A stretch of DNA of 64,000 nucleotides, taken from NCBI GenBank assembly GCA_001513145.1, contig LFSP01000043.1:73518-137517 (forward strand), written 5' to 3'. This DNA is from Clostridia bacterium DTU025 (GTDB lineage: Bacteria; Bacillota; DTU025). The position numbers and the translations under genes are program-made. The notes beneath the pieces are model-generated. The model did not search any database. It saw only the letters and a program-made list of their open reading frames with translations, and had not been told where the DNA came from. Below are positions 27,611 to 62,632 of the stretch, piece by piece. Numbering within the stretch: position 1 is the first letter of the stretch; every line of letters begins with the position of its first letter.

Positions 27611-28162
27611 TTAACACTCCTCCGTGTCCGTCTGTTGGCCGTCGTTGGTGCCGAGCTTGCACCTGGCGCACAGACCCCACATCTCCATCCAGTGGTCCGT
27701 GATATTGAAGCCCGTTAGCTGCTCCAGGCGTTCGCTAAGGGAGTCCACGATGCAACCGTCGAACTCGGCTACTGCTCCGCACTGGGTGCAGAGGATGTGG
27801 TGATGGTGGTTGTTCACGGCCACTCCGTCGGCAGGATGCTCGGCCGGCGGCCTGTCTGAACACTCGCGGCTCAGCTCGTACCGGTGCGCACCGTCCTTGA
27901 GATTCAGTCTCGAAAGGATCCTGGCCTCGGTGAGAAGCTCAAGAGTCCTGTACACCGTGACCAAACTGGCGTTGGGCCGTGCCACGCGAAGCAGAGAGTG
28001 AACTTGGGCTGCTGTGAGGTGTCCGTGTCCTTCGAAGAACACGTTGAGCACCGCGCGTCGCTGCGGCGTAAGCCTGTAGCCGGCGGCGCGCAGTTTCGCC
28101 TCAGCCTCGGAAACCGCACAATGAGAAGTCGCAGCACCGGAGCTGCTCACCGAAGACAACAC
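27611..28162 (-). CDS. Fur-family transcriptional regulator
   Basis: 'AAGYRLTPQRRAVLNVFFEGHGHLTAAQVHSLL', 'NNHHHHILCTQCGAVAEFD'. Confidence 0.9.
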   Translation of the reverse strand: MLSSVSSSGAATSHCAVSEAEAKLRAAGYRLTPQRRAVLNVFFEGHGHLTAAQVHSLLRVARPNASLVTVYRTLELLTEARILSRLNLKDGAHRYELSRECSDRPPAEHPADGVAVNNHHHHILCTQCGAVAEFDGCIVDSLSERLEQLTGFNITDHWMEMWGLCARCKLGTNDGQQTDTEEC

Positions 28163-28343
28163 CCTTCTGAGTCGCTACATGAAAACGACTTTCAATTACA
28201 CCATCATTATACCCTGAATGTGGCGAAATACAATGAGTACCGGCCGAGACGGCGCTGCGTGTGTAGCTCTAGGCGTCCAGCTGTCGTTTTCTCGTGCCGC
28301 AGTGCTGGCGTTGTGCGAAAGCGGTAGGAGCTTTGCGGCGTTC

Positions 28344-29300
28344 TTCTCCATTGTTAGGAGCAAGCGCCGGTGTTCTCCTTCAACTCGAGGAGAACACCGG
28401 CGCTTGCTCCGCCCGCGGGAGGAGTAGGTGGGATGGGTTGGTGCTGTGGCTGCTGCAGTTTACGAACGCGAGTTGGTTTCTTTCGTTTAGCTGGGGTTTT
28501 GTGTTCGAGCCGGTTTCGTGACGGGAGTCCCTAGCCACAACCGGTCCGGTGATCGTGTCGACATAACCTGTCGCGAGGGTGCTGTCCTCCGTTTCGAGGA
28601 GCAGGTGGCGATCTGCTCCTCGAAGCGGAGGAGCACGCGCTCGTTTGCTCCTCCCTTTGGAGGAAAAGCTCACGCGGATCGAAGCCGTGCAAGTGATCCG
28701 CCAGGGCCGCAAGACAGCAAACCACGTCTACCTGGGGCTTTGAGATAGCACTCTTTCGCCTCCGCGCGACGTCGTCTGCACTTGATCTGCGGGAGGGGCC
28801 AAGGACACCTTCCGCGAGGGTGTTTTCCTCCGTTTGGAGGGGCAGGTGCTGGTATGCTCCTCGATTCGGAGGAGCGCCCCCGTATCTGCTCCTCGTTTTG
28901 GAGGAAAAGCTCACGTGGATCGAAACTGTGGAAGTGAGCCGCAATATCCAAGCGACAGCAAGCCACGTCTACCTGGGGCTTTGAGGCGGCGCTCTTTGGC
29001 CTTCGCACGGCGTCGTCTGCACTTGATCCGCAGAAGGTGCTAAGAACATCTTCCGCGAGGGTGTTTTCCTCCGTTTCGAGGAGCAGGTGCGTGTGGGCTC
29101 CTAGAACCGGAGGAGTACACCCCTGCTTGCACCTCCCGTTGGAGGAAAGCCACGAAGCAGGGTATCACGTCGGAATCCAGTTAGGTTCGGTTACAGCCTC
29201 CCGCCCACGTCGGCGATTGAGACGGTGCCCTGAATCTGCGCCTGACCCCGTGCGCCTGCTGGCCTGACAGGAATCGAAGGCAGTGCGGAGAATGTGATAG
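28344..29300. repeat. Non-coding tandem array, about 4 units of 241 bp, each with an 80-nt multi-hairpin module
   Basis: Modules at 28344-28423, 28585-28664, 28826-28905 and 29067-29146, same length and exactly 241 bp apart; 'CTGGGGYTTTG' also recurs at 241-bp offset in unit 0; 3' end diverged. Confidence 0.8.
28357..28410. other. Perfect 22-bp inverted repeat (hairpin, 10-nt loop) in module 0
   Basis: GGAGCAAGCGCCGGTGTTCTCC - ttcaactcga - GGAGAACACCGGCGCTTGCTCC. Confidence 0.9.
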
Positions 29301-29325: not shown

Positions 29326-30249
29326 GTGGGCGGAGTGGTTGGGTCAAGCTCTGACCGGGTGTTCATCGAGTGTGTCCCAAATTTCTCTGAGGGCAGAAGG
29401 CCGGAGGTCGTTGCAGAGATCGTGACGGCCATCGCGTCGGTTGAAGGTGTCCGTATCCTGGACTATTCCTCCGATGCCGCTCACAATCGCAGTGTGGTGA
29501 CGCTCATCGGCCCCCCGGGTCCCGTGGTTGAGGCTGCGTTCAGGGGAATCGCCCGGGCGCGGGACCTCATCGACATGAGGACACACGAGGGAGAGCATCC
29601 TAGGCTCGGAGCCACCGACGTGGTTCCTTTCGTGCCCATCGCAGGGGCGACAATGAGCCAGTGCGTGGAGCTGGCCGTTGCCTTGGGTGAACGGGTGGGA
29701 CGAGAGCTGGAGATTCCCGTGTACCTGTACGAAGAGGCCGCCACCTGCCCCGAGCGACGCAACCTCGCGGACATCCGCAGGGGCGAGTACGAGGGGCTTT
29801 TCGAGAAGATAACCAAGCCGGAGTGGAGCCCGGATTTCGGGCCTTCCGTTGTTCATCCCACGGCCGGCGCCACTGTGATCGGAGCTCGACTGCCGCTGAT
29901 CGCGTTCAACGTGAATCTGACCACATCAGACCTGAACGTGGCCAAGAAGATAGCCCAGGCTGTACGGGCGTCATCCGGCGGACTTGCTTACGTGAAGGCT
30001 CTCGATGTGTTACTGAATGACAGGAACGTGGCACAGGTTTCTATGAACCTCGTGAATTACAGGAGGACTCCCATCCCTAGGGTTATGGAGATGGTGCGTC
30101 GCGAGGCAGCTCGCTGGGGCGTGGGCGTATTGGAGAGCGAGCTCATCGGGCTTGTTCCCCTTGATGCGGTGCTGGATGCTGCCGCCTACTATCTGCAGCT
30201 TCCCAAGCTTGATCGTTCCCAGGTGATCGAGGCCGGGCTATGGGAATGA
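29326..30249 (+). CDS. ftcD: Glutamate formimidoyltransferase
   Basis: 'ECVPNFSEGRRPEVVAEI', 'DYSSDAAHNRSVVTLIG'. Confidence 0.93.
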   Translation: MGGVVGSSSDRVFIECVPNFSEGRRPEVVAEIVTAIASVEGVRILDYSSDAAHNRSVVTLIGPPGPVVEAAFRGIARARDLIDMRTHEGEHPRLGATDVVPFVPIAGATMSQCVELAVALGERVGRELEIPVYLYEEAATCPERRNLADIRRGEYEGLFEKITKPEWSPDFGPSVVHPTAGATVIGARLPLIAFNVNLTTSDLNVAKKIAQAVRASSGGLAYVKALDVLLNDRNVAQVSMNLVNYRRTPIPRVMEMVRREAARWGVGVLESELIGLVPLDAVLDAAAYYLQLPKLDRSQVIEAGLWE

Positions 30250-62544: not shown

Positions 62545-62632
62545 GCCGAAGTGGTGGAATTGGCAGACGCGCTAGATTCAGGGTCTAGTGGGAGTTAATC
62601 CCGTGCGGGTTCAAATCCCGCCTTCGGCACCA
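62545..62632 (+). tRNA. tRNA-Leu (anticodon CAG), CCA encoded
   Basis: GCCGAAG...CTTCGGC acceptor, CTAGA-TTCAGGG-TCTAG anticodon arm, long variable arm, GGTTCAAATCC T-loop. Confidence 0.97.

Follow-up and report, generated by a model that had tools for sequence, protein, structure and literature searches.

What kind of element is the tandem repeat that lies between a Fur-type gene (27611-28162, minus strand) and ftcD (29326-30249, plus strand) in the window, the 64,000-nucleotide stretch of Clostridia bacterium DTU025 analyzed here? Both genes diverge from the repeat. A palindrome scan placed the array at 28341-29149 and found four modules with a period of exactly 241 bp, in agreement with the spacing given by a first-pass annotation of this DNA, while TRF called a 241-bp array at 28572-29148. 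The annotation had extended the array to 29300, but homology stops at about 29157. Its 80-nt module proved to be a real repeat that is better defined as 86 nt, consisting of three 22-bp palindromes of the form TGCTCCTC-6-GAGGAGCA spaced 32 bp apart. The CTCC-GGAG pattern that it had seen three times per module corresponds to these palindromes, the second and third of which start at +32 and +64 in all four modules. The first palindromes start at 28341, 28582, 28823 and 29064, each step being 241 bp. A conserved box, CTAGCTGGGnCTTTG, is located 60 bp past the module end. The features of the array are as follows.

28341..28426, plus strand: module 0, palindromes at 28341, 28373 and 28405
28427..28581, no strand: linker 1, 155 bp, nearly unrelated to the linkers of other arrays except for the box
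28487..28501 (C40:102004-102018), plus strand: box 1, TTAGCTGGGGTTTTG, 60 bp past module 0
28582..28667, plus strand: module 1, palindromes at 28582, 28614 and 28646
28668..28822, no strand: linker 2, 155 bp
28728..28742 (C40:102245-102259), plus strand: box 2, CTACCTGGGGCTTTG, 60 bp past module 1
28823..28908, plus strand: module 2, palindromes at 28823, 28855 and 28887
28909..29063, no strand: linker 3, 155 bp
28969..28983 (C40:102486-102500), plus strand: box 3, CTACCTGGGGCTTTG, 60 bp past module 2
29064..29149, plus strand: module 3 and end of the array, palindromes at 29064, 29096 and 29128

The box consensus in the window array was CTASCTGGGnCTTTG, after modules 0, 1 and 2; the fourth module has no box, the four modules having three linkers between them. 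Direct repeats had start-to-start distances of 241 and 241 bp, and units 1 and 2 were 80% alike, the figure estimated earlier. Module 0, already singled out as the most diverged copy, nevertheless keeps the spacing and has CTGGGGYTTTG at +147 from its start, as do the next two modules; it also holds a perfect 23-bp inverted repeat (28357-28379/28388-28410). The array encodes no protein and its period of 241 bp rules out a repeated reading frame, so the earlier view that a repeated protein is unlikely was correct.

The covariance-model search for related arrays that the annotation had proposed was productive. Model R1, built from 31 modules, found about 44 modules (about 130 palindromes) at 14 contig locations in the 2.0-Mb genome. 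These form roughly 13 gene-free arrays of one to five modules, about a dozen besides the window array, located between unrelated genes. C24 and C21 look like one array split by the assembly, as C21 opens with the C24 linker. Array lengths are lower bounds, since this genome and that of the relative described below are both drafts of many contigs, with contigs ending inside arrays. The neighboring genes encode an IF-2B-family protein (probably methylthioribose-1-phosphate isomerase), a polysaccharide flippase, EPSP synthase, UDP-GlcNAc epimerase, Rrf2, YlxM, a polysaccharide deacetylase, a GH18 glycosyl hydrolase, an M24 peptidase and a HisI-type protein. There was no common theme among the functions of the flanking genes and no rule relating array direction to their direction. 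On C35 (L010:4844-5031) the polysaccharide flippase reading frame continues into the array's last module, so the array may have replaced or extended the 3' end of that gene. The C51 array (L103:6808-8975) is flanked by two reading frames, neither with a Pfam family at E<=0.001.

The pattern CCTC-6-GAGG-N17/18-CCTC-6-GAGG had 41 matches in the genome compared with 0 for the reversed control, which shows that the palindrome pair is not due to chance; palindromes with the wrong loop length occurred at background level only. All seven perfect palindromes and 30 of the 36 with one mismatch were within modules. The six one-mismatch matches outside arrays are compatible with background, and no clearly solitary palindromes were found. 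In the alignment of the 31 modules, 15 of 102 columns were invariant, and these are half-site bases. The 32-bp palindrome spacing was exact in nearly all modules, with one 33-bp gap in C36_0.

Spacing between modules was similarly constrained. Linker length was 154-156 bp in 21 of 24 linkers and the box was at +60/61 in 22 of 24, in spite of a between-array linker identity of 0.33-0.34 (0.27-0.28 for shuffles), which bears out the earlier observation of a constant length and spacing despite sequence drift. Within arrays the identity was 0.63-0.68. Some linker pieces recur in other arrays (C24 and C5, with a hairpin that also occurs in C44 and the C46 flank), so not every array is independent. 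Four exceptions to the period were found. In C36 a period of 231 adjoins 242; in C35 a period of 250 adjoins 240, with the box moved by 10 to +70; in C32 the period is 272, with the box moved by 32 to +92; and in the relative Firmicutes bacterium UBA1393 one period is 260, compared with 248-249 elsewhere. Each of the four shifts differed from a multiple of 10.5 by no more than about 0.5 bp (probability by chance about 0.001 if independent, the test being post hoc), which suggests, for four cases chosen after the fact, that the exceptions shift by about whole helical turns (about 10 or 31 bp). In many linkers a further GC-rich hairpin, terminator-like but without a clear T run, lies next to the box, exemplified by GGCGGCGC...GCGCCGCC in the own genome (L015, L101, L057) and GGCATGCCC...GGGCATGCC in UBA1393 (L310, L106, L107, L111).

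UBA1393 (G004), which belongs to another genus of the same family, has about ten arrays, in which palindromes with a CCTC-6-GAGG core are spaced 31 bp apart and the box reads TTTTAGCTGGG or CTTCTAGCTGC; the reliable periods range from 248 to 260 bp, those of 246 and 238 being discarded because they cross runs of N. The paired-palindrome pattern had 23 matches in UBA1393 (0 for the reversed control) and one in 397 other genomes of the phylum. Pattern and covariance-model searches thus confirmed the wider recurrence that had been expected, both across the own genome and in a relative with the same plan. The six other genomes of the family had zero palindrome pairs, so that arrays are present in two of eight; assembly loss could account for part of this absence, but is unlikely to explain all of it given six zeros. 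When the window array was compared with 60 relatives by BLASTN, the own genome alone gave matches, and no array position was common to the own genome and UBA1393 among the flanking genes identified. What is conserved between the two genera, judging from these two genomes, is the plan and not the sequence. R1 matches in the Thermaerobacter-like G019 and G065 lay within coding sequence and were rejected as chance. Among the matches listed in a GTDB-wide pattern scan were UBA1393 and others judged coincidental, mostly 33-bp repeats but also intergenic CCTCCCC/GGGGAGG palindromes in Clostridia and other MAGs. A scan of viral sequences gave 11 matches, none with the 240-bp plan. A further family of tandem palindromes in intergenic DNA, with sequences such as CCTCCCCTTTGAGGGGAGG, was noticed in Clostridia MAGs (L123:2245-2400, L116:6766-6960, L198) and seems unrelated to the arrays. 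On UBA1393 contig C96 a Nextera/Tn5 mosaic-end-like stretch, TATACATAAGAGACAG, lies just right of the array (L106:7895-7925), possibly an adapter remnant or a false join in the assembly.

Box orientation was compared with GC skew over about 9-40 kb of context, C9 being left out as it has one module and no box. The box strand was opposite to the skew sign in 11 of 12 informative arrays of the own genome (C46, C35, C6, C13, C33, C24/C21, C51, C44, C36, C32 and C5; two-sided binomial p 0.006), the sole exception being the window array. In UBA1393, where skews are weak, eight arrays went with the skew sign and three against it, which was not significant overall and is only suggestive of replication-related polarity. 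The sign of orientation is not comparable between the two genomes, because the homology of module orientation is uncertain.

Three other readings of these data were weighed. The annotation had left open a structured RNA or a DNA element, and only the latter is favored. Under the RNA reading, which we consider very unlikely, each 241-bp unit would be transcribed into three hairpins or one long one, the copies serving dosage or multimerisation. As RNA, the four window modules do have much stronger predicted folds than shuffled sequence, whichever strand is taken (z -3.7 to -8.9), and hexamers of neighboring palindromes are complementary, but strong predicted folding on either strand is to be expected because palindromes must fold. 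When three small hairpins or one long hairpin were taken as a fixed structure, covariation was not above shuffles, and both the place of extended perfect pairing and the favored fold differed between modules. G-T mismatches (37) were as frequent as A-C mismatches (36), so that nothing indicates selection for RNA wobble pairs; together with the absence of fixed-fold covariation, this means that half-site sequence and spacing are conserved, not pairing as such. The window array has no terminator-like site, one weak promoter-like site and no match in Rfam at gathering thresholds, the only match in the whole window being a tRNA (62545-62629); weaker RNA-family matches were dismissed as chance hairpin matches. 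The covariance check did find significant covariation, though only between neighboring palindromes: the first against the reverse complement of the second (p=0.014) and the second against the reverse complement of the third (p=0.0017; permutation, arrays as units), with no enrichment in direct orientation in the same test. In window module 0 the arms are homogenised, the spacers being exact reverse complements (10/10), and the 10-bp spacer of C35 module 2 recurs in module 3 in inverted form (10/10), compared with at most 8 matching positions in 2344 spacer comparisons between arrays. Homogenised arms and inverted spacers are both known to result from template switching between inverted repeats (PMC8604942), a process that can by itself generate such hairpins (PMC8794818; PMC8604942). 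We take the two scars as diagnostic of DNA template switching at these palindromes, and template switching by DNA polymerase explains the adjacent-palindrome covariation. In both scars the arrays resemble quasi-palindrome template-switch hotspots; those, however, represent a mutational process that explains neither the nature of the arrays nor the spacing they keep.

The same scars would fit functionless satellite DNA, in which template switching and unequal crossing-over keep the palindromes similar while arrays expand and shrink locally, and so would the higher linker identity within than between arrays and the contigs that end in arrays, as expected of repeats. This reading is nonetheless unlikely: independent arrays with nearly unrelated linkers agree in period to within 2 bp and in the position of the box, where neutral arrays should have unrelated periods, and the plan has persisted in two genera whose half-sites differ by genome. 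It is doubtful, too, that these are REP/BIME-type repeats, non-autonomous and mobile or selfish, dispersed and amplified by a transposase that works on the single-stranded DNA of the lagging strand, with a regular spacing that stems from the copying mechanism. The nearest known kind are BIMEs, mosaic arrays outside genes whose palindromes alternate in orientation and for which binding of IHF, gyrase and Pol I is among the published roles (PMC2817692). Like them, the arrays described here are extragenic, dispersed, modular and tandem, with regularly spaced neighboring palindromes inverted (by the permutation test above) and with between-module DNA that varies among arrays. Array positions not shared with UBA1393 would fit mobility, and the replication-related polarity in the own genome would fit insertion into the lagging-strand template. 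However, the linkers of most arrays are not recent copies of each other, and inter-REP segments of Stenotrophomonas BIMEs vary substantially in length (PMC2817692), whereas the linkers here do not. RAYT (Y1 transposase, PF01797) had no match in either array-bearing genome (G000, 97% complete; G004, 84%), while PF01797 matches were found in three relatives without arrays (G001, G003 and G005). BIMEs also occur in hundreds of copies, and REP/BIME families in more than 100 per genome with singletons and doublets; here there are roughly 13 arrays, with palindromes essentially only as module triplets at exactly 31/32 bp, a near-constant period of 240-242 bp and a conserved box between modules. The GTAG/CGTC-tagged REP superfamilies are likewise small palindromic intergenic repeats, the CGTC type having no dedicated transposase either (PMC3733652), but neither tag was seen at the palindrome ends in the 102-column alignment, and the palindromes here form phased triplets only. 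Since there is no RAYT/Y1 match, no GTAG/CGTC tag and no singleton palindrome, we do not file the arrays as a REP/BIME member.

We prefer to regard the arrays as BIME-like double-stranded DNA elements that provide sites for a putative lineage-specific protein, perhaps for chromosome organisation, and give this reading a probability of about one half. Each module presents six inverted half-sites (GAGGAGCA / TGCTCCTC) with centre-to-centre distances of 14 and 18 bp, its three palindromes being three helical turns apart, with modules every ~23 turns and the box at a fixed place between them. Dimers of a putative sequence-specific DNA-binding protein, peculiar to the lineage and co-evolving with the half-sites, would occupy the palindromes, and with all sites on the same side of the helix, neighboring modules would be brought together in a single nucleoprotein complex, either wrapped or looped. 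The two genomes differ in half-sites and in spacing at once, and each is uniform across its own arrays, a pattern that a trans-acting factor would be expected to leave. The complex might be used in chromosome organisation or in the handling of replicated DNA; a chromosome role seems most plausible because the arrays are dispersed between unrelated genes, show no link with gene direction and have a near-uniform orientation to skew. We infer that such a protein exists and what it is, as well as the helical-face logic and the nucleoid function. Against this binding model, the window array itself breaks the polarity, only two of eight family genomes have arrays, and the polarity seen in UBA1393 is of opposite sign with respect to the box. 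The conserved half-sites could also reflect homogenisation instead of protein binding.

No binding protein was found. P0001, encoded next to the C32 array (L099:6400-7275), combines a helix-turn-helix with what on visual inspection looks like a nuclease motif (EYQGxHHF...RDxxK...LIEV), similar to VSR-type nucleases; its only Pfam matches are weak HTH ones. It was rejected as a specific partner, as every family genome has relatives of it (1-5 each), with arrays or without. Only tentatively, we suggest that the arrays may represent a new class of bacterial chromosomal locus, dispersed arrays of palindromic sites that are helically phased and oriented with replication, on which a putative lineage-specific protein would build a large nucleoprotein structure with an architectural or segregation role.

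For this little-studied lineage of Bacillota, the near-constant linker length, the 31/32-bp palindrome spacing and the helical-turn exceptions suggest selection on DNA geometry, which points to an uncharacterised chromosome-wide binding protein. With their dozens of related palindromes, the arrays are also a natural record of template switching, visible in an inverted spacer and in homogenised arms.
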